A model generated the notes under the pieces. That model worked only from the letters and a program-made list of their open reading frames with translations, did not search any database and was not told where the DNA came from. Shown one piece after another: positions 2-39,522 of a DNA stretch of 64,000 nt. The first letter of the stretch is position 1. Every line of letters starts with the position of its first letter. The stretch lies in assembly GCA_900319645.1 (NCBI GenBank), contig ONPG01000021.1, forward strand, positions 1-64,000, read 5' to 3'. The stretch comes from an uncultured Bacteroidales bacterium (GTDB taxonomy: Bacteria; Bacteroidota; Bacteroidia; Bacteroidales; Paludibacteraceae). A program made the position numbers and the translations under genes.

Positions 2-133
2 GACCAGGCACGCTGGGCAGCCGCCCGCAAAGCCGGCGACCCGCACCGCACCTTCCGCGGATGGCTCTTCGCCAAAGGCTGGGAGAACTACGACGAGGAA
101 AGCGGAACCGTTATCTGGCCAAGCGAGCTCTAA
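2..133 (+). CDS. C-terminal end of an unidentified protein (partial)
   Basis: The window opens inside an open frame that runs 43 codons to a TAA at 131-133. The peptide is rich in Trp, Arg and acidic residues and ends in VIWPSEL. Nothing in this short tail identifies a family. It is kept as a gene because the frame is open from the window edge and the stop is followed by a repeat element and a strong hairpin terminator, as expected at the end of a transcription unit. The longer overlapping frame starting at 61 runs through the terminator and the tRNA and is not real. Confidence 0.5.
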   Translation, partial: DQARWAAARKAGDPHRTFRGWLFAKGWENYDEESGTVIWPSEL

Positions 134-4675: not shown

Positions 4676-7600
4676 ATGAAAAAGATTTCATTCTTGTTTG
4701 CGCTCCTATGCGCAAGTGTAATGAGCTTTGCAGCCATCGACTGGAGTCAGTATGAATACTTGGGCGACGGCGCCGGCGGTGGTGCTTATTCCAACAAGTA
4801 CAAAGTAGCTCCTGCCGAGGGACAAAACGTAGTGAATATCCAGAAACCGGGTTGGGCCGCTGAAGCCGGTATTTACACCAGCGATTTCGGTGGTGCTATC
4901 CAGTCCTGCTCGCTGGGTGACAAGTGCGCTATTGACGGCGGCGGTGTAGTACTGTATCTGAGTGCTTTCACTGCCAAGGAGACCGAAGTTACCATCGTTG
5001 CGGCACTGGGAACCAAGACCTTCACCGTTTACTACGAAGACGGTACGGAAGGCGGCGGTAGCGGAGAGCCTTCCAAGATTTACGATACCAACTTCGCTCT
5101 GGCCAGCAACGGCAGTTCAGCAACCGCCAGCAGCGGCAACGCCGCATTAGCCATTGACGGCGATGAAGGCACCCGCTGGGAGAGTGCAGCAACCGATGAC
5201 GAGACATGGACGCTGGATATGGGTCAGGCTCGTATCTTCAACACCATCAAGATCCTCTGGGAAGGCGCGTATGCCAAAGAGTTTGAGTTGACCTACTCGA
5301 TGGACGGCGAGACCTGGAACACGCTCTACACCGAGACCAATCTGACCAAAGCGGGTTGGCAGACGATTGAGGTGGAAGAAACCACAGCGCAGTACATCAA
5401 ATATCACGGCACCAAACGCGCAACCGGTTGGGGTCAAAGTTTCTTTGAGTTCCAAGTGCTGCTGCCGGGCGTCAGCACCCTGACAACGATTGATCTGAGT
5501 GCTGCAAGCACGATTTCGAAAACAGGCGGCAACGGAGTGGCATTGACCGCCAGTCCGAAAGACCAGAACGGCAAACCGATGGAGGCAGAGATCAGCTATG
5601 AGATTACTCCTGCTGCCGCCGGAAATGTAATAAACGGCAAGTATGTAGCCGCCCAAACAGGTGCAGCCAGCATCGTGGCTTACAACGGCGAGGTGCGTTC
5701 CAAAGCTGTCACCATCTATGGTGTAGCAAGCGACAACCTGGCGCTGAGCACCAATATCACCACGGACAACAAGATTGTAGCCCAATCTGACTTCGCTCCC
5801 GATGGCACCGATGCCTTCTACGCCGTGGATGGCAATGCGGGTAGTGTATATCAGGGTAGAGCCTCCAATAGTGCCGGTGTGGATTTCGATGCTTGGTTTG
5901 TAGTGGACCTGGGTGCGTACTATAATATTGACATGGTTACCATCAATTTCGAGGGAGCCTGCGCACAGAACTACCACGTGGATTTCTCGGCAGACAACAC
6001 CGAATGGCTTCTTGGCTATGACTTCGTAGGAACACCGGGTATCTATGGCCGTACCGACTATATCAGCACCCTGACCAACAACCAGAAGGTGCGCTACGTA
6101 CGCTTCTGGAGCACCAAGGCTGCCACCGAGTGGGGAATGAAGATTTTTGAGTTCCAAGTCTTTGGTCAAGAGTGGGTGGACAGCGGTGACACCGAGGCTC
6201 CGGTAATGGTCAGCGCTACGCTGGTAAGCAAGAACCACAATACGGCAGTCATTGCAGTGGAAGCTACCGACAATCATGAGATTGCTTCTTACCGCGTTAC
6301 AGGTACTGATCTGGACAAGAAAATTGCCGCAGTGGATGGCAAGATTACCGTAACCGGATTGACCCCGAACACAGCTTACACTCTCACCGTGACTGCTTTT
6401 GACGTAGCAGGCAACGAGTCGGCGAACAGCAAGAGCGTAGAGTTCACCACCGACAATTACATGACTGCTCCCACGGCAGCCGCTGAAGCTCCGACATGGG
6501 ATGCCAGCTTAGTGAAAGCCATCTACAGCCCGACCTATAGTGCCAACTGCGGTTTCGGCGAATGGGGCAGCGGTACGACCGTAACGGATACCGAGTTCGG
6601 AAAGAAATACGTTACCGTAGGCGGTGGCTATTTCGGTATGGTTGATTTCGCTATCAACGCCCTCACGATGGAGAAACTGCACTTCGACATCTGGATTGCC
6701 GATGATGCTACTATCCGTATCGTACCTATCTGGGGCGGTGCAGAGCAAGGCGTGACGGCTACGCTGAAAGGCCAGCAGTGGAACTGCGTAGATATTGCGC
6801 TGGAGCAGTACACCGGTATCACCGACTGGAGCAATATCTTCCAGATGAAGATTGACCAGGCATCGAACCTGACCTTCTGGGTAGGCAATGCGTATTTCTA
6901 CCGCGAGAGCGAGTTGGTGGACGATGTCAAGCCGACCAACGTAACGGCAGCCAAAGCATCGGAGTCGTATTTCTCTGTAGTACTGACCGTATCGGCAGAG
7001 GACAACAGCGGCGCAGTGCTCTACGTAGTGAAAAACGGCGAGACAGAAGTAGGCAGCGGTGCAGGCGCCAGCGGTGCAAACGTGAACATCACTGTCAACA
7101 ACCTGACTCCGAACACCGAGTACAACCTCCATGTGATTGCCAAGGACGGCAATGACAATGCCGCAGAGCCGGTAGCCGTACCCGTCAAGACCAAAGAAGC
7201 TCCCGCGGCTGCGCCCGTTCCGACGTTCGCCAACATGGAGAAAGTAGTGCCTGTCTTCACCGATGCACAAGCAGGCGGTCCTGTCATTGAATTCGGTGCA
7301 TGGGGACAATCGACAGTAGGTATGTTTGCCGAACTGGCAGCCAACGACCATGTATGCTACGGCAGCAACTTCAACTATATGGGCTGGTTGCTTACTCCGG
7401 CAGTCAACGCCACGGATATGCAATACCTGCATGTGGATCTCTACAGCGCTACGCTCGACAAGATCTCCGTGACTCCGATCAGCCCGGGTCATGAGGGCGT
7501 CAAAGCCATTGAGTTGACCAAGAACCAATGGAACTGCGTAGAGATCGACCTGAGCGCTTATGAAGGCAAGGAGATTGATTGGAGCAATATCTTCCAGTTC

Positions 7601-31053: not shown

Positions 31054-31085
31054 TTTGCATAATTCAGAAAAATGTAGTAATTTTG
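31054..31085 (+). promoter_or_regulatory. Promoter of the cas9-cas1 operon
   Basis: TTTG (31054-31057), 20 nt, TAATTTTG (31078-31085). Start of transcription near 31092 gives a leader of about 40 nt before the cas9 ATG. Confidence 0.8.
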
Positions 31086-31130: not shown

Positions 31131-34100
31131 ATGAAAAAGAAAATTCTCGGTTTGGATTTAGGAACCAATAGTATCGGTTGGGCAGTAGTTAATGAGGATA
31201 ACAACATGAGAAGTATATCACATGCTGGTAGCCGTATTATTCCTATGGATGCAAAGTTGATGGGAGATTTTGAAAGCGGTAATTCGATCTCACAAACAGC
31301 AACTCGTACTGCTGCTCGCGGAGCAAGGCGTTTGTATGAGCGTCACGCTTTGCGTAGAGAACGCCTAAACCGAGTTTTAACTATTCTTGGCTTCTTGCCG
31401 GATCACTATACAAAAGAACTGAATCGTTACGGGCAATTAAATAAAGGCGCAGAACCTAAATTAGCATGGAAGTTCATTGATGGTAAATACTTGTTTTTAT
31501 TCAAGGAGTCCTTTTTTGAAATGGTTCGTGATTTTTCCAGAATACATCCGGAATTGTTGGAGAATGGACGAAATATAGCTTACGATTGGACGATCTATTA
31601 TTTGCGCAAGAAAGCATTAACTCAGCCCATTGGCAAACAAGAATTAGCATGGATTCTTCAGCAGTTTAATCAAAAACGCGGTTATAATCAAGCCCGCGGA
31701 GAGGAAGAAGAACAGAAAGAAAATAAACGTCAAGAGTTTATAACACAAAAAGTTCTTTCAGTTCGCGATACAGGCGAAAAGTCAAAGGGAAAAACTATAT
31801 ATGAAATATGTCTTGAAAATGGATGGAACTTTACCAAAGAAAGCAAATATCCTTTAGATTGGGAAGGCAAAACTAAAAACTTCATTGTTTCAACCACTCT
31901 CAATTCTGATGGAACAGATGCAATAGATAAAGATGGTAAAGCCAGAAGGACATTTAGAGCACCTGCTGATGATGACTGGGGGCTTCTGAAACTAAAGACC
32001 CAACACGATATTGATGCAAGCCACAAGACTGTCGGAGAATTTATCTACGATGCTTTGCTACAAAATCCTGATCAAAAGATTATTGGTCAGTTAGTACGTG
32101 TTGTTGACCGTAAATACTATAAAGACGAACTAAAACGCATCCTTGATACTCAAAAGCAGTTTATTCCCGAATTGCAGAACGGAAATTTGTATGATGAGTG
32201 TATTCATGCGCTTTATCCGCAAAATGAAGCTTATCGGAATAGTATAGCCGGCAAGGATTTTACGTATTTGCTGCTAAATGATATTATCTTCTATCAACGC
32301 CCGCTGAAAAGCAAGAAGTCATTAATCAACGAATGTCCGTACGAATATCATGTATTTAAGGAAAAAGATGGCAAATGGCAAAAAAAATACTTGAAATGTA
32401 TTTCCAAATCTCATCCTATTTATGAAGAGTTTCGTTTATGGCAGTTTGTGGAAAACTTACATATCTATAGAGAGGCTGCTAATGGAATAGGCAAAGAAGA
32501 TTGTACCGCAGAGTATATTGCTAATAAAGCGGAATTGATTTCTTGGCTGCTGACAAAGAAAGAAGTGACCGAAGAGTCTTTGCTCACACATGTAGCTGGA
32601 AAGCAAAAGAAAGGTCTATCGTGGAATTATGTTTCCGAAAAAGGGAAAACATACCCTGCTGCTCCTGTTTCTTCTACTATAATTGGTACTATTAAAGAGG
32701 CAGGTGGAGACATCAACACGTTAGCCGATCCATTTGAAATCCGCCAAAACAAGCACCATAGAAAATTATCAGGTAAAGAACAAGACGAGAAAGCCAAAAA
32801 GAATAATAGAATTATCAATAATTTAGAGCAAATATGGCACATGCTCTATTCAATATCTGACAAGTCTCAACTGCTTGCGGCTCTTAAACATTACGCAGAA
32901 ACAAACCATCTGTCCGATGTTTTTGTAGAGAAATTGGGTAAGATGAAGCCATTTACCGACTATGGAGCTTATAGCGAAAAGGCTACGCGCAAGTTACTGA
33001 ACTTAATGCGTAGCGGAGAGTATTGGAGCGAAGAAGCGATCGATGCTCAAACAAAATCTCGTATTGACCATATTTTAACCGGAGAAGTGGATGATTCGGT
33101 TAGTGAACGTGTACGCGAGAAATTGGACACAATGCATGAAGTAAAAGATTTTCAGGGACTTCCATTGTGGCTTGCGGAGTATGTGGTTTACGATGTGCGC
33201 AAGAACGACACCAAATGGGAGAAGCCGGAAGATATAGACAAGTATCTTCAATCATTCCGTTTACACTCGCTCAATAACCCCATTGTGGAGCAAGTAGTCT
33301 TGGAAAGCCTAAGAACGGTTCGTGATATTTGGAAACAAGAAGGACAAATTGATGAAATACATATCGAATTAGGTCGTGATCTCAAACAAAATGCGGAGCA
33401 ACGCAAGAAAACCATGCTACGCCAGCAGGAGAATGAGAAAGCAAATTTGCGTGCTAAATTGCTTTTGCAGGAATTTATGAATCCAGAGATGGATGTGGAA
33501 GGAGTTCATGCCTATTCGCCGAGTCAGCAAGAGCTGTTCCGTATTTATGAAGATGGTGTTTTGTCTGCTAATAAACCAGATGATGATACACAGCGTATTA
33601 TTAACGATTTATCGTCTCTCAAACAGCCATCGTTACAGGATATCAAGAAATACCGTTTGTGGCTTGATCAGAAGTATGTTTCTCCATACACCGGTGAGAT
33701 TATTCCATTAGCTAAACTCTTTACACCGGCATACCAGATTGAGCATGTTATTCCTCAATCGCGCTTCTTTGACGATTCGATGTCCAACAAGGTTATTTGT
33801 GAGGCAGAAGTAAATGCACGTAAAGATCGAATGTTGGGACATGAGTTTATCGCTCAATGTGGAGGAGAGAGAATTACGCTTTCCGGAGGAAAAGTGGTAC
33901 AAATATTGTCTCTACAAGCATATGAAGATACTATAAAAAAGAATTTTGCTGGAGATCCTCGCAAGCAAGAAAAACTGATGTTGGATGAGATTCCTGAGAA
34001 GTTTGTCGCTCGTCAGATGAATGATAGCCGCTATATTAGCCGACTGATGATGCAATTACTCAGCAATATTGTTCGCGAAAAGATTAGTAATACGGAATAT

Positions 34101-35720
34101 GAACCGGAAGCAGTTAGTAAAAATCTGATTGTTTGCAACGGAGCAACAACTACTCGTTTGAAGAAAGATTGGGGTATAAATGATGTGTGGAATAAGATTA
34201 TTCTTCCGCGTTTCGAGAGACTGAATCAGATCCAAAACACTACGGTCTTTACTATCAAAACGGCAAACGGTCATATTATTCCGAATATGCCTTTGGAACT
34301 CAAACAAGGATTTGAGAAAAAGCGTATTGATCATCGCCACCATGCTATGGATGCGATAGTTATTGCCTTTACCACACGCAATCATGTAGCTCTACTGAGT
34401 AATGAATCCGCCTTAGACAAAGACGAAAAAGCACGTTATGACTTGCAGACATTGCTGCGCAAACGCGAAGTATGGAGAAGCGCAGATGGTAAAGAGCATT
34501 ATAAATTTACAGATTTTATTGTGCCTTACGATGGTTTCCAAAAAGATGTGCAAGAAACGCTGGAAAATATAGTGGTTAGTTTCAAACAGAACTTGCGTGT
34601 TATCAATAAGAGCAATAACCATTTCGTTCATTTTGTAAAAGATGAAGAAACAGGAAAACTAAAAAAGAAAAGAGATCCACAAAAGAAAGGCGAAAACTGG
34701 TCTATTCGCAAATCTCTGCACAAAGCAACTGTTTTTGGAGAGATAAATCTGCGTAAAAAGAAATATGTAAATCTAACATATGCGCTCCAGCACGTAGAAG
34801 ATATTGTAGAGAAGGATTTGCGTGAAAAACTGAAGGAATTATTGCAGGAAGGCAAAAACGAAAAGCAAATCAAGCAATACTTTACCTCAGAGCCGGATGT
34901 TTGGGCAGATGTGAATCTAAAACGTATTGAAGTTTACTATTATACCAAGGATACAAATGACCATTACTATGCGGTAAGAACGATATTGGATGATTCGTTT
35001 ACAGAAGATTACATCCGTAATAAAGTAACTTCGGAAGCTATCCGGAAGATTCTCTTGGCACATTTAGAGCGTTGCAATAACGATCCTAAATTAGCGTTCT
35101 CTCCGGATGGTATTGAGAAAATGAATGCAGACATTCAGGCTCTCAATAACGGTGTACCCCATAAACCAATATATAAAGTTCGCACGTACGAAAAGTCTGA
35201 TAAAAAATTTGCAATTGGTCAAATTGGTTCAAAAAATAAAAAGTTTGTAGAAGCTGCGGATGGTACAAACCTTTTCTTTGCGGTTTATTCTACAAAGACG
35301 GAAGATGGTTCAGAAAAACGCTTCTTTGTCACTATACCTTTCAAAGTGGCTTTGGATTGTCAGAAACGTGGAAAGAAAGAATGGCGTACATTATTAGACC
35401 AATGGACGCAAAACCAACAACTTGTACCAGAGAATGCAAAATTATGTTTTATCCTTTCTCCCGGCGACTTGGTTTATGTGCCTACAATTGATGAGTTGCA
35501 TAGCAAACAATATTCGTTGCAACGAAATAGAATTTATAAATTGGTGTCAACAAATGATGCGAACGCATATTTTATTCCTTGTAGCGTGGCATCGCCAATA
35601 GTTAGCAATACAGAATATACGCAATTAAACAAAATACCTCGTTTGGATACGGGCGAACTAATAAGAGAAATTTGTATTCCTATTAAAGTTGATCGTTTGG
35701 GAAATATAATTTCACAATGA
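31131..35720 (+). CDS. cas9: Cas9, type II-C CRISPR effector nuclease
   Basis: 1529 aa RNA-guided DNA endonuclease. RuvC-I: LGLDLGTNSIGWAVV with D9. The Arg-rich bridge helix follows the start (ARGARRLYERHALRRERLN). RuvC-II: EIHIELGRDLKQN with E746. HNH: YQIEHVIPQS with H872 and N/K residues after it. RuvC-III: RIDHRHHAMDAIVIAF with H1071 and D1074. All catalytic residues are present, so the nuclease looks active. The length is at the upper end for II-C and agrees with other large Bacteroidota Cas9 proteins. Absence of csn2 and cas4 from the visible locus supports subtype II-C. The gene is clearly AT-richer than the PUL upstream, as expected for a transferred defence island. It overlaps cas1 by ATGA. 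Confidence 0.97.
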   Translation: MKKKILGLDLGTNSIGWAVVNEDNNMRSISHAGSRIIPMDAKLMGDFESGNSISQTATRTAARGARRLYERHALRRERLNRVLTILGFLPDHYTKELNRYGQLNKGAEPKLAWKFIDGKYLFLFKESFFEMVRDFSRIHPELLENGRNIAYDWTIYYLRKKALTQPIGKQELAWILQQFNQKRGYNQARGEEEEQKENKRQEFITQKVLSVRDTGEKSKGKTIYEICLENGWNFTKESKYPLDWEGKTKNFIVSTTLNSDGTDAIDKDGKARRTFRAPADDDWGLLKLKTQHDIDASHKTVGEFIYDALLQNPDQKIIGQLVRVVDRKYYKDELKRILDTQKQFIPELQNGNLYDECIHALYPQNEAYRNSIAGKDFTYLLLNDIIFYQRPLKSKKSLINECPYEYHVFKEKDGKWQKKYLKCISKSHPIYEEFRLWQFVENLHIYREAANGIGKEDCTAEYIANKAELISWLLTKKEVTEESLLTHVAGKQKKGLSWNYVSEKGKTYPAAPVSSTIIGTIKEAGGDINTLADPFEIRQNKHHRKLSGKEQDEKAKKNNRIINNLEQIWHMLYSISDKSQLLAALKHYAETNHLSDVFVEKLGKMKPFTDYGAYSEKATRKLLNLMRSGEYWSEEAIDAQTKSRIDHILTGEVDDSVSERVREKLDTMHEVKDFQGLPLWLAEYVVYDVRKNDTKWEKPEDIDKYLQSFRLHSLNNPIVEQVVLESLRTVRDIWKQEGQIDEIHIELGRDLKQNAEQRKKTMLRQQENEKANLRAKLLLQEFMNPEMDVEGVHAYSPSQQELFRIYEDGVLSANKPDDDTQRIINDLSSLKQPSLQDIKKYRLWLDQKYVSPYTGEIIPLAKLFTPAYQIEHVIPQSRFFDDSMSNKVICEAEVNARKDRMLGHEFIAQCGGERITLSGGKVVQILSLQAYEDTIKKNFAGDPRKQEKLMLDEIPEKFVARQMNDSRYISRLMMQLLSNIVREKISNTEYEPEAVSKNLIVCNGATTTRLKKDWGINDVWNKIILPRFERLNQIQNTTVFTIKTANGHIIPNMPLELKQGFEKKRIDHRHHAMDAIVIAFTTRNHVALLSNESALDKDEKARYDLQTLLRKREVWRSADGKEHYKFTDFIVPYDGFQKDVQETLENIVVSFKQNLRVINKSNNHFVHFVKDEETGKLKKKRDPQKKGENWSIRKSLHKATVFGEINLRKKKYVNLTYALQHVEDIVEKDLREKLKELLQEGKNEKQIKQYFTSEPDVWADVNLKRIEVYYYTKDTNDHYYAVRTILDDSFTEDYIRNKVTSEAIRKILLAHLERCNNDPKLAFSPDGIEKMNADIQALNNGVPHKPIYKVRTYEKSDKKFAIGQIGSKNKKFVEAADGTNLFFAVYSTKTEDGSEKRFFVTIPFKVALDCQKRGKKEWRTLLDQWTQNQQLVPENAKLCFILSPGDLVYVPTIDELHSKQYSLQRNRIYKLVSTNDANAYFIPCSVASPIVSNTEYTQLNKIPRLDTGELIREICIPIKVDRLGNIISQ

Positions 35721-36601
35721 TAAAGCGCGTCTTATGTTTTGAGAATCCTGCGCGGCTAAGTCTCAAGCTAGCGCAGATGGTGGTCGAGTTACAAGATGTG
35801 ACCCGCACGCTGCCTATTGAAGATATTGGTGTCGTCATTCTCGATCATATGCAAATAACCATTACTCACGCGCTTATTGATGCACTACTGGCTAATAATG
35901 TGGCGATTGTAACCAGCAACGACAAGCATCTTCCTGTCGGTTTGATGCTTCCTCTGGACGGAAACACCTTGCAAAGCGAGCGTTTCCGCGCACAGATAGA
36001 TGCTTCCGAACCACTCAAAAAACAAATGTGGCAACAAACGGTAGTTGCTAAAATCCTTGGACAAGCACATGTGTTAGGCACACAACTTCTTGAACACACA
36101 AACATGCTCAAATGGGCAAAAGATGTGCGTTCGGGAGATACGGATAACATGGAGGCGAGAGCAGCGGCATTCTATTGGCGCAATATGTTCGAAAAGGATG
36201 CGTTTATCCGTGACCCGCAAGGACTGCCGCCCAATAATTTGCTCAATTATGGCTATAGTATTGTGCGTGCGATGATGGCAAGAGCGTTAGTGGGAGCAGG
36301 ATTATTGCCGACATTAGGCATTCATCATCATAGCCGCTATGACGCGTATTGTTTGGCGGATGATATCATGGAGCCTTATCGCCCATTTGTGGACATGAAA
36401 GTGCTGGAAATGTGGAAGAAAGGAGACATAACAAGCGACATTTCGTCTGAGCAAAAACGCCAATTATTAGGAGTAACCACCATGGATGTGAACATCTCCG
36501 GTCATCGCAGCCCAATGATGTTAGCAATCCAAACAACCGCACAGAGTGTACAGAAATGCTTCTCCGGCGAAGCACGAAAAATCATATACCCAGATTGGTA
36601 A
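35717..36601 (+). CDS. cas1: Cas1 integrase
   Basis: 294 aa, the usual Cas1 length for type II. With Cas2 it inserts new spacers. An N-terminal beta domain (about 1-80) leads to the helical catalytic domain. Metal-binding residues are expected at the Glu in DNMEARAAAFYW (about 149), the His in GIHHHSRYD (about 204) and the acidic pair in CLADDIMEPYRPFVD. The motifs are intact. It is translationally coupled to cas9 through ATGA and separated from the next small gene by one nucleotide. Confidence 0.96.
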   Translation: MIKRVLCFENPARLSLKLAQMVVELQDVTRTLPIEDIGVVILDHMQITITHALIDALLANNVAIVTSNDKHLPVGLMLPLDGNTLQSERFRAQIDASEPLKKQMWQQTVVAKILGQAHVLGTQLLEHTNMLKWAKDVRSGDTDNMEARAAAFYWRNMFEKDAFIRDPQGLPPNNLLNYGYSIVRAMMARALVGAGLLPTLGIHHHSRYDAYCLADDIMEPYRPFVDMKVLEMWKKGDITSDISSEQKRQLLGVTTMDVNISGHRSPMMLAIQTTAQSVQKCFSGEARKIIYPDW

Positions 36602-36602
36602 A

Positions 36603-37058
36603 ATGAAAACAAGTAGTAAATTACCGAAGCGTAATAACGCGACAAGTGGTCAAAAAGCGCACAATGAAAGCCAATTCATAAAAATTGGCCGTGTTCGTCT
36701 GCATAGTTGGATGAATGAAAAATTGCCTGCTGCTGATATATTTATTTCGGAACGAGAAATAGTACACATAGCCAACAAACACAGCCGTGAATTAGCTTCG
36801 CTTGGAATGGAGGCATTCAACTATGTTACCATGATCATCAATCAGTCGAACGAAATTCGTAAAGATGATCGCGATGCGTTGTTCTTTATTGTTAGCGGAC
36901 AACGAAAGACAGATAGCGATTTGGAGCAATGTGCAGTTGTGGAACTTAAAATAGAATGGATGGGGCGCAAAAGAGTCTATGTAATCAAATCAGCCCGCCC
37001 GATAAATTGGGGCAGGCTGCGTAAAATTGAGTTGGTGTGTGTTAAACCCCGCTCTTAA
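36603..37058 (+). CDS. Unassigned 151-aa CRISPR-linked protein, possible BECR-fold RNase
   Basis: The ATG at 36603 is one base after the cas1 stop, so this gene is in the cas operon. It is not Cas2 (that gene is at 38852-39187), nor Csn2 or Cas4 by length and sequence. The first 25 residues are basic and Ser/Asn-rich; the rest is a compact alpha+beta domain. The stretch IFISEREIVHIANKHSREL, then YVTMIINQSNEIRKDD, then strands LFFIVSG, VVELKIEWM and VYVIKSARPI, follows the pattern of PBECR/Barnase-EndoU-ColicinE5/D-RelE nucleases (paired His, then a helix and antiparallel strands). That assignment is by eye and only tentative. Its coding is AT-rich like cas9/cas1. A role in crRNA handling, spacer acquisition or as a toxin are all open. 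Confidence 0.6.
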   Translation: MKTSSKLPKRNNATSGQKAHNESQFIKIGRVRLHSWMNEKLPAADIFISEREIVHIANKHSRELASLGMEAFNYVTMIINQSNEIRKDDRDALFFIVSGQRKTDSDLEQCAVVELKIEWMGRKRVYVIKSARPINWGRLRKIELVCVKPRS

Positions 37059-37140
37059 CATAAGACTTCCGTTCAGCCTTACCTCTGTGCCGCTGAATTG
37101 CAATAGTGAGCCACACGCGCTCAATATGCTTTTGCGACTG

Positions 37141-37172
37141 CAAAAGTACAACAAAAAATTGATATATGCAAA
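37141..37172 (-). promoter_or_regulatory. Antisense promoter between the cas operon and the array
   Basis: On the - strand TTTG (37169-37172), 20 nt, TACTTTTG (37141-37148): a perfect consensus pointing away from the array and toward the 3' end of the 151-aa gene and cas1. The transcript would begin near 37134. It contains a 6-bp hairpin AAGGCT/AGTCTT (read from 37080 down to 37062) and no open frame of note. It could make an antisense or small RNA. Confidence 0.6.
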
Positions 37173-37210
37173 TTTTTAGAAGAAAAAGTGATGAAATTTT
37201 TAATATTTAA

Positions 37211-37268
37211 TCAAAAAAGTAACTAACAATCGTTCCCTTTAGGGATAAGAAATACGGTCTAAAACAAG
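37211..37268 (+). repeat. Degenerate terminal CRISPR repeat split by a 26-bp insertion
   Basis: TCAAAAAAGTAAC (37211-37223) matches repeat positions 15-27 and 37250-37268 matches positions 28-46 with one change. Between them sit 26 extra bases (37224-37249) containing CCCTTTAGGG. The first 14 repeat positions are poorly conserved. A 29-nt spacer (37269-37297) separates it from the first intact repeat. Confidence 0.8.
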
Positions 37269-37297
37269 TTCTACGGCTCATTTACGGCTTACGTGCT

Positions 37298-38710
37298 GTT
37301 GTGTATGTCATTCAAAAAAGTAACAAATACGGACTAAAACAAGAAAGGTTTCTTTCGTGCTCGACCAACGCACGTTGTGTATGTCATTCAAAAAAGTAAC
37401 AAATACGGACTAGAACAAGCTGCGGTCGTCCCGCTGCCCATGCAATTATGTTGTGTATGTCATTCAAAAAAGTAACAAATACGGACTAAAACAAGGCACG
37501 TATTCCTTAACCGTTTCCGTATCGTGTTGTGTATGTCATTCAAAAAAGTAACAAATACGGACTAAAACAAGGAACAGTAACTGGTACAACTAATGGCTCT
37601 AGTTGTGTATGTCATTCAAAAAAGTAACAAATACGGACTAAAACAAGGCCGCTGTTTGGTGCTCCTTGTATTGACATGTTGTGTATGTCATTCAAAAAAG
37701 TAACAAATACGGACTAAAACAAGACGGCGTTACACTCCGATATTTTAGGCACCGTTGTGTATGTCATTCAAAAAAGTAACAAATACGGACTAAAACAAGA
37801 GCCGTTTTTACAATCTTTACTTTCCATACGTTGTGTATGTCATTCAAAAAAGTAACAAATACGGACTAAAACAAGAGTAAAAGGAGAATAAATTATGAAA
37901 ACTTTGTTGTGTATGTCATTCAAAAAAGTAACAAATACGGACTAAAACAAGTCTGGTCTCATTTCTGTGTGTTTTGTTTTAGTTGTGTATGTCATTCAAA
38001 AAAGTAACAAATACGGACTAAAACAAGCAAATTGAGGTTAACAAGTCAATCGCGAAGTTGTGTATGTCATTCAAAAAAGTAACAAATACGGACTAAAACA
38101 AGCGGGGTATTCGGAACGTGTTTTTAATACCTGTTGTGTATGTCATTCAAAAAAGTAACAAATACGGACTAAAACAAGTCCGGCGGAAAAGACGGAAATA
38201 CTGACGTAGTTGTGTATGTCATTCAAAAAAGTAACAAATACGGACTAAAACAAGAGCGGCAGCACCATTTCGGCAATGGACGCTGTTGTGTATGTCATTC
38301 AAAAAAGTAACAAATACGGACTAAAACAAGTCAAAATCCCGTCAATTCAAAAAACAAAAAGTTGTGTATGTCATTCAAAAAAGTAACAAATACGGACTAA
38401 AACAAGTTTCATTTCGTCGTCCACATCCGTGTAGCGGTTGTGTATGTCATTCAAAAAAGTAACAAATACGGACTAAAACAAGAAGATTATCCACCTTTGC
38501 GGGATCAACTTTGTTGTGTATGTCATTCAAAAAAGTAACAAATACGGACTAAAACAAGGATATTTATACCAATTCGTCTTCACTCCCCGTTGTGTATGTC
38601 ATTCAAAAAAGTAACAAATACGGACTAAAACAAGAGAATATGTGAAATACGTCCCGGACTACTAGTTGTGTATGTCATTCAAAAAAGTAACAAATACGGA
38701 CTAAAACAAG
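37298..38710 (+). CRISPR. Type II-C CRISPR array, 19 repeats of 46 nt, 18 spacers
   Basis: The repeat begins GTTGTGTATGTCATTC and ends ACGGACTAAAACAAG. Repeats start every 76 nt from 37298 to 38665, so spacers are 30 nt, apart from one of 29 nt at 38028-38056. One more 29-nt spacer (37269-37297) lies before the first intact repeat, after the degenerate one. All repeats look identical except the second (37374), where ACTAAAACAAG reads ACTAGAACAAG. The 5' part of the repeat is complementary to the tracrRNA at 39279, which fixes crRNA as the + strand. Spacer 37876-37905 looks like a gene start (AAGGAG, then ATGAAA). No spacer was seen to match another place in the window. Confidence 0.98.
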
Positions 38711-38768
38711 AGATTCCGTATAAAACACTAAAACACAACTAATTAAGACATGTTTTAGAACGTAAAAA
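38711..38768 (+). other. Right flank of the array, possible leader
   Basis: AT-rich segment after the last repeat, with an inverted pair CTAAAACA / TGTTTTAG. The end of the array next to it carries only intact repeats, so new spacers may enter here. No promoter reading into the array is seen. Confidence 0.4.
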
Positions 38769-38790
38769 AGCAGCACTTTCGAGTGCTGCT
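38769..38790. terminator. Bidirectional terminator between array and cas2
   Basis: Eight-bp stem AGCAGCAC / GTGCTGCT with a 6-nt loop, an A-run on the left and TTTGCTTTTG on the right. It can end both the + strand array transcript and the - strand cas2 transcript. Confidence 0.8.
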
Positions 38791-38851
38791 TTTGCTTTTG
38801 GTAGATCACTTTTTGATTCCTATAATTCCAATTAATGTTAATTTTCGATTT

Positions 38852-39225
<374 letters not shown>

Positions 39226-39240
39226 ATTTATGCGATTTTA

Positions 39241-39272
39241 TTTGCATATTTCAAGAAAAAGTGCTACTTTTG
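39241..39272 (+). promoter_or_regulatory. Promoter of the tracrRNA
   Basis: TTTG (39241-39244), 20 nt, TACTTTTG (39265-39272). Transcription from about 39279 would begin exactly at the anti-repeat. Back to back with the cas2 promoter. Confidence 0.85.
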
Positions 39273-39278
39273 CACAAC

Positions 39279-39358
39279 TTTTTGAATGACATACACAATA
39301 AGGATTATTCCGATGTGTAAACATTTAGGGTGGGACACCAGTCTCGCCCTCTTTTTTT
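39279..39358 (+). ncRNA. tracrRNA of the type II-C system
   Basis: The anti-repeat at 39280-39298 (ending GAATGACATACACAA) is complementary without mismatch to about the first 20 nt of the CRISPR repeat. AATAAGG follows, a nexus-like element common in II-C tracrRNAs, then a GATGTGTAAACATTT hairpin. A 10-bp terminator stem (39327-39336 with 39341-39350, loop ACCA) is followed by seven T. The predicted RNA is about 80 nt. It lies beyond cas2, about 570 nt from the last repeat and outside the cas9 operon. Confidence 0.9.
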
Positions 39359-39423
39359 GCTGCGGCGGGAGAGTTCACGACACTACCTTCGGCTGTGGCG
39401 GAGATCCGGAGAGGACTTGGATA

Positions 39424-39494
39424 GGAGATGGTCCCGTGATGGTCAAGTGCTGAGCAAGTGAGACCTAACACCAGACCATCACGGGACCATCTCC
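39424..39494. repeat. 21-bp perfect inverted repeat with 29-nt loop
   Basis: GGAGATGGTCCCGTGATGGTC at 39424-39444 is exactly complementary to 39474-39494. It lies in the gap between the tracrRNA and the metG terminator, where no gene is seen. It has no T-run. Possible roles are a structured RNA, a remnant of a small mobile element or a boundary of the CRISPR island. Confidence 0.75.
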
Positions 39495-39522
39495 CAAGGA
39501 AAAGCCAACAGCAAAAAGATAA

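Follow-up and report, generated by a model that had tools for sequence, protein, structure and literature searches.

How does a type II-C CRISPR-Cas locus come to hold its array between cas1 and an inverted cas2, and what would this order mean for the supply of its guides? The locus that raises the question lies in the window, a 64,000-nt stretch of contig ONPG01000021.1 (assembly GCA_900319645.1) from an uncultured bacterium of the Paludibacteraceae. It reads cas9-cas1-orf151 (+), array (+), cas2 (-) and tracrRNA (+). This order, claimed in an initial annotation of the same DNA, is real, and all of its parts were located by ORF, profile, repeat and motif searches.

The cas9 gene (31131-35720, +) encodes a type II-C protein of 1529 aa that matches RuvC_III (2.4e-52), HNH_4 (2.3e-17) and TIGR01865 (2.1e-116), and its reading frame shares 4 nt with that of cas1 (35717-36601, +; 294 aa; TIGR03639, 9.6e-89). 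One nucleotide after the cas1 stop begins orf151 (36603-37058, +), an ORF for a strongly conserved small protein of 151 aa with a sub-threshold resemblance to PBECR3, a predicted RNase. Next comes a degenerate terminal (oldest) repeat at about 37209-37268 (+), in which the tracrRNA-pairing half is missing. The CRISPR array (37298-38710), found by repeat search, has 19 full 46-bp repeats with crRNA sense on the + strand; 17 spacers are 30 nt long and one is 29 nt. The leader side, from the array to the cas2 stop (38711-38851), contains a terminator hairpin (38766-38793) and is followed by the inverted cas2 (38852-39187, -; 111 aa; TIGR01573, 1e-17). The tracrRNA (39279-39358, +), starting near 39279, consists of a perfect 20-nt anti-repeat (39279-39298), the part TAAGGATTATTCCG, which we take to be the nexus, and a terminator (39327-39350).

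As promoter motif we used TTG about 20 nt ahead of TAnnTTTG, the Bacteroidota type, of which the TTG element and the spacing are our assumption. In the portion of one report on which we draw, TAnnTTTG is named as a Bacteroidota promoter motif (PMC10309648). Such motifs stand before cas9 (TTG-20-TAATTTTG, 31054-31085, +), where a cas9-cas1-orf151-array transcript would start, before cas2 (TTTTG-19-TAATTTTG, 39195-39225, -) and before the tracrRNA (TTTG-20-TACTTTTG, 39241-39272, +), the -7 boxes of the last two lying 63 bp apart.

With RuvC and HNH domains in Cas9, an array, a tracrRNA carrying anti-repeat and terminator, and both cas1 and cas2, the type II-C locus is complete. The genes csn2 and cas4 are absent from it, and its sole extra ORF, orf151, matches neither in Pfam, NCBIfam or PADLOC. 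Two usual but non-defining II-C traits, an array running against the cas operon and a promoter in each repeat, appear to be lacking here. A search with the 1431-bp array stretch gave no match among phage genomes. Just past the tracrRNA lies a long imperfect hairpin (39422-39496) with 26-bp arms that are 92% complementary; its Rfam microRNA matches fall far below their cut-offs.

The II-C locus of Flavobacterium psychrophilum, which has repeat-borne promoters, shares cas9, cas1, cas2, 46-bp repeats, a tracrRNA and the lack of csn2 and cas4, as far as the consulted part of its description goes (PMC10309648). The window differs from it in that cas2 is inverted behind the array with a promoter motif of its own, the array reads with cas9-cas1, and the repeat is without the TTG/TAnnTTTG motif. 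In the excerpts of two further reports, the II-C systems of Campylobacter jejuni and Neisseria meningitidis likewise gain new spacers at the last repeat and have a mutated oldest repeat, and transcription from upstream can be kept out of the array by terminators, which we list among the shared features; they differ from the window in having a promoter in each repeat and an array transcribed against the cas operon (PMC12080349, PMC3936727). Extra repeats with mutations are a known feature of II-C loci, according to the same excerpt (PMC12080349).

Cas1 loci were sampled from 76 matching genomes among 200 of the family (G065 was left out), from 25 among 178 of the window's genus and from 59 among 395 of the phylum. 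Of 30 named loci 23 were used, seven being dropped as doubles of genomes already sampled, and some of those used possibly still double a phylum genome. The named Cas1 relatives nearest to the window come from Paludibacteraceae and Bacteroidales bins, associated by their titles with goat, reindeer, pig and red deer. The 164 Cas1 loci comprise 148 ordinary ones, in which cas1 and cas2 are adjacent on one strand (median gap between the two matches 27 bp), 7 split ones, and 9 with no cas2 in the stretch, several of these being cut by contig ends. The split order was found in the window, G187, G175, G173, G165, L139 (RGIG1559) and L142 (RUG10750), that is in 7 of the 155 loci having both genes, all of them in one clade of one Paludibacteraceae genus. 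Among the genomes compared, the architecture is clade-specific, in agreement with the initial annotation, which had suggested a lineage-specific arrangement on the one locus; order search and synteny across the family, genus and phylum samples now bear this out. No paper describing the order was found in open-access full text, and it may be in print elsewhere. A co-directional array is not in itself unique, since among the 49 orientable arrays in the rest of the family 13 run in the cas direction as well, behind adjacent cas1 and cas2.

The named split loci all come from metagenome bins, which might point to an assembly artefact, an objection that had been anticipated. However, the order recurs in six separately assembled genomes besides that of the window (with goat, pig and red deer among the samples), on contigs of up to 379 kb, and we regard a misassembly as having next to no probability.

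In a Cas1 tree of 34 rows, the seven split loci form one clade (100/99) with three loci in which cas2 was not seen (L140, L141 and L146), and in a Cas2 tree of 31 rows the seven split loci again form one clade (100/99). One outgroup row (L063), which falls outside the split clade, was flagged in both trees as very long and is probably out of frame. Nine clade loci encode a Cas1 of 294 aa; that of G165 and of four loci of the sister group has 308 aa. Since cas2 is on the opposite strand and has a promoter motif of its own, it could be imagined that the original gene was lost and replaced or re-acquired from another CRISPR system. Yet the split Cas2 proteins are a single clade among the genus's own Cas2s, and the split cas2 keeps its leader link to the array, so that such a replacement is most improbable.

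The sister loci, which belong to the same genus (G070, G050, G142, G241, G316 and G319b), share with the split loci the leader, a far-end tracrRNA on the + strand and a divergent promoter pair. They differ in their ordinary cas1-cas2 order: cas9-cas1-cas2 (+) are followed by the leader, the array (-), a left-facing promoter motif (-) that faces the array, and the tracrRNA promoter with the tracrRNA (+). The corresponding block of the split loci reads array (+), leader, cas2 (-). Repeat sense is + in all five orientable split arrays (6 examined) and - in all eight orientable sister arrays (9 examined). The gap between cas2 and array measures 111-113 bp in six split loci and about 142 bp in the window; in the sister group it is 111-115 bp in L050-L052, L148 and L152 and 138 bp in L153. 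All seven split loci have 63-64 bp between the -7 boxes of the divergent pair, and so do four of the six sister loci in which the spacing was measurable (L050, L152, L153 and L193); in L051 and L052 the boxes are 149 bp apart, and in L152 a further - box lies at 35 bp. The other four of the ten sister loci were left out because a downstream tracrRNA (L154, L168, L192) or the tracrRNA box (L148) was not found, and in L168 the tracrRNA lies upstream of cas9. The breakpoints fall at the cas1 stop and just inside the divergent promoter pair.

We propose that the split order arose by one inversion of the cas2-leader-array block and that crRNAs are now mainly made by read-through from the cas9 promoter, a reading to which we give a probability of roughly 0.76. 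Its account of how the architecture originated is well supported by the comparison of loci. A single flip of the block would have left the divergent promoter pair in place, and the left-facing promoter, directed at the array in sister loci, would therefore now precede cas2; the motif before cas2 in the window is accordingly read as the former array promoter. The same flip would put the oldest, truncated repeat behind cas1, on the strand of cas9-cas1 and without a matching promoter. Adaptation presumably still works after the inversion, because leader, array and cas2 stop have kept their mutual layout.

Each of the seven split loci has a promoter motif ahead of cas2. In five of them, including the window, the box ends 7 nt short of the ATG; in L142 the distance is 10 nt, in L049 it is 39 nt. 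The earlier proposal that cas2 is expressed separately from cas1 is consistent with these motifs, but it had overlooked that the split is an inversion, which would also have turned the array round and taken it off its promoter. For this reason crRNA expression has probably changed at least as much as that of cas2.

Motif scans of the arrays bear on this second effect. All 8 sister loci tested have a - motif directed at the distal end of the array, as have 5 of the 66 other ordinary loci tested; over these 74 loci shuffles expect 2.8. In the control direction (+) the same distal stretches contain a motif in 11 of 74 cases, some of which are tracrRNA promoters. From 150 bp before the cas1 end to the first repeat, none of the seven split loci has a + motif, and a scan of the window's pre-array stretch that allowed one mismatch found none either. 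Among the arrays of other family members, TTG-18..21-TAnnTTTG lies inside the repeat in 40 of the 49 that could be oriented (54 examined), where letter shuffles expect 0.06. The counts are 7 of 45 in the phylum sample and named loci (61 examined), 1 of 8 in sister arrays (9 examined) and 0 of 5 in split arrays (6 examined). The repeat of L146, a member of the Cas1 clade, reads TTG-20-TAACTTTG by eye; internal motifs thus persist in some of the clade, and the inversion alone did not remove them. L146 has a short array directly behind cas1 (6500-6760), with no cas2 in the following 1.6 kb. Behind cas1, 6 of 10 sister loci have a hairpin with a T tract, a feature shared by 3 of 138 other ordinary loci and lacking from all 10 clade loci.

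With no array motif and no hairpin barrier after cas1, the array would be open to read-through from the cas9 promoter motif, and crRNA is probably read through from cas9-cas1. Guide supply would then be tied to Cas9 and Cas1, with Cas2 supplied separately, and the truncated oldest repeat, devoid of its tracrRNA-pairing half, would prevent a useless first guide. In the window, read-through would be hindered by the insert, which separates cas1 from the array by about 600 bp and brings in an opposing promoter. We infer from these motifs an effect of the architecture on expression that can be tested.

A promoter can be present where no motif is seen, and the array may have one that goes unrecognised. 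If so, the inversion would be true and the array would nevertheless keep its own promoter, missed by the TTG/TAnnTTTG motif, with no dependence on read-through. The evidence at hand consists of motif scans, the 3' halves of the repeats are conserved even in the degenerate terminal repeat and could hold a promoter element, and repeat-borne promoters are the II-C rule in the part of the review used here (PMC12080349). This has to be weighed against the split repeats and upstream stretches, none of which fits a motif found in most repeats of other family members, and against G165, where only about 12 bp separate the cas1 stop from the degenerate repeat. An array promoter of its own is thus a real though minority possibility, and we favour read-through after the inversion.

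It had further been suggested that the architecture places an extra gene, orf151, in the usual cas2 slot. In its strongest form, orf151 would have taken this slot and displaced cas2, hence the separate regulation of the integrase subunits. The gene lies on the cas strand under strong purifying selection and starts 1 nt (window) or 2 nt (L141) after the cas1 stop, which leaves no room for a promoter of its own. However, six of the seven split loci are without orf151, L140 and L142 have the degenerate repeat directly behind cas1, and elsewhere in the genus the orthologues lie away from cas genes. The gene therefore neither defines nor caused the split order, and a displacement of cas2 by orf151 is very unlikely.

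At E 1e-5, 17 of the 178 genomes of the genus match orf151, and in nine the match covers the full length with at least 86% identity; only two of the nine stand beside cas1 (the window and G319, the latter being L141), and orf151 is carried by 2 of the clade's 10 Cas1 loci. Fourteen other stretches with orf151 (4.5 to 17 kb each), seven with full-length orthologues and seven with truncated or distant copies, contained no cas gene in tblastn searches with the window's Cas proteins. In L141, array, cas2 and tracrRNA were not found in the 2.5 kb past orf151 on the contig. Nine orf151 sequences form 36 pairs, of which 30 have a saturated dS across codons 1-127, where dN is 0.03-0.12; by these estimates orf151 is strongly conserved and under strong purifying selection. 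Its distant relatives are 19-27% identical, and the histidines H55 and H60 are invariant. Over the last 25 codons dS drops to 0-0.19, and the 3' end therefore appears to overlap another conserved element.

Two candidate identities of orf151 were rejected. A Cas2 substitute would stand beside an intact Cas2, and orf151 has no Cas2 profile match. Against PBECR3 (PF18812), a predicted phage RNase domain, orf151 scores 12.7 bits (E 0.13), short of the gathering cut-off of 30 bits. Three of six relatives score better and still below this cut-off (L008 25.4, L009 18.6 and L010 16.2 bits), and the other three (L006, L007 and L011) have no PBECR3 match. The assignment was dropped because the scores are sub-threshold, L007 scores nearly as high as the best of these against the unrelated family SQAPI (24.2 bits), and AlphaFold2 models of two sequences, orf151 and its L141 counterpart, are too poor to use (mean pLDDT 38.5). 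In contrast to a predicted phage domain, orf151 has no relative in the phage genomes searched, nor in viral contigs searched with orf151 alone and with the family alignment; plasmids gave no match to L008, the sole query used there. PBECR domains might act on CRISPR RNAs, according to the part of one report that treats PBECR in general and leaves PBECR3 unnamed (PMC5512222). An action of orf151 on CRISPR RNAs is a lead only.

Convergent with the 3' end of orf151 and overlapping it, we observed an undescribed, putative structured small RNA (36985-37172, -, with its promoter). The RNA itself would span 36985-37136, its ends being estimated, behind the promoter motif TTTG-20-TACTTTTG (37141-37172, -), and it also has a terminator. 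Copies were found in L055, L056, L058, L074-L076 and L175-L187. The RNA occurs in 17 of 178 genus genomes and 5 of 200 family genomes, and it is nearly invariant in most Paludibacteraceae genomes that have it. Some genomes with a shortened orf151 (G285, G311, G314 and G149) still keep it. Seven of 42 predicted pairs show changes on both sides that keep the pair, and the covariation term is overall slightly unfavourable (+1.14). One arm has lost about 31 nt in the window and about 18-20 nt in L141. In the window and five loci with orf151 or the RNA, neither the tracrRNA nor the antisense RNA has an Rfam match at gathering score, and the sub-threshold matches resemble chance. Within the order sample of 295 genomes, the antisense RNA occurs in the window's own genome only.

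On the present comparison, we read orf151 and the antisense RNA as later passengers that entered the gap between cas1 and array in this genome, in one corner of the clade. By gene layout and conservation they would also be candidates for a toxin and its RNA antitoxin. A bolder model would make guides solely as the 3' tail of the cas9-cas1 messenger, with Cas2 as a separately switched, limiting adaptation factor and the RNase-like orf151 and the antisense RNA inserted as a valve on pre-crRNA supply; we consider this combination doubtful.

Together, our results suggest that a flip in one group of animal-gut bacteria created a new wiring of CRISPR guide production. One family would then hold a record of stepwise rewiring, from repeat-borne promoter motifs, through a promoter outside the array, to an inversion that handed this promoter to cas2. 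If crRNA read-through is true, the split loci would be natural test cases for the role of II-C repeat promoters and for a Cas2 regulated apart from Cas1.

Two kinds of Cas9, only about 23% identical to each other, occur in the clade. One is about 1500 aa long (window, L047, L048, L049, L139 locus) and the other about 1154 aa (L046, L140, L141, L142, L146), and in L046 and L142 array and tracrRNA are nearly those of the other Cas9 kind. Dual-RNAs are described as exchangeable only among close Cas9s in the part of the source considered here (PMC3936727), a rule on which this pairing of dissimilar Cas9s with nearly the same tracrRNA and repeats would bear.

Several further irregularities were seen in single loci. 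G165 (L049, cas9 on +) has two nearly identical tracrRNA genes (+), at positions 1604 (before cas9) and 9947 (after cas2). The array of L139 (8890-9480) mixes 46-nt repeats with longer ones that carry an insert of about 20 nt near the cas1-side end. G187 has another insert at the cas1-array junction (L046 7527-8570), a 348-codon ORF with an MPNHLH motif and no Pfam match, which by this motif we take to be a REP-associated transposase. G319 combines the remnant of a split-type cas9-cas1-orf151 locus (L141) with a second, ordinary locus (L193), in which cas1 has an in-frame stop.
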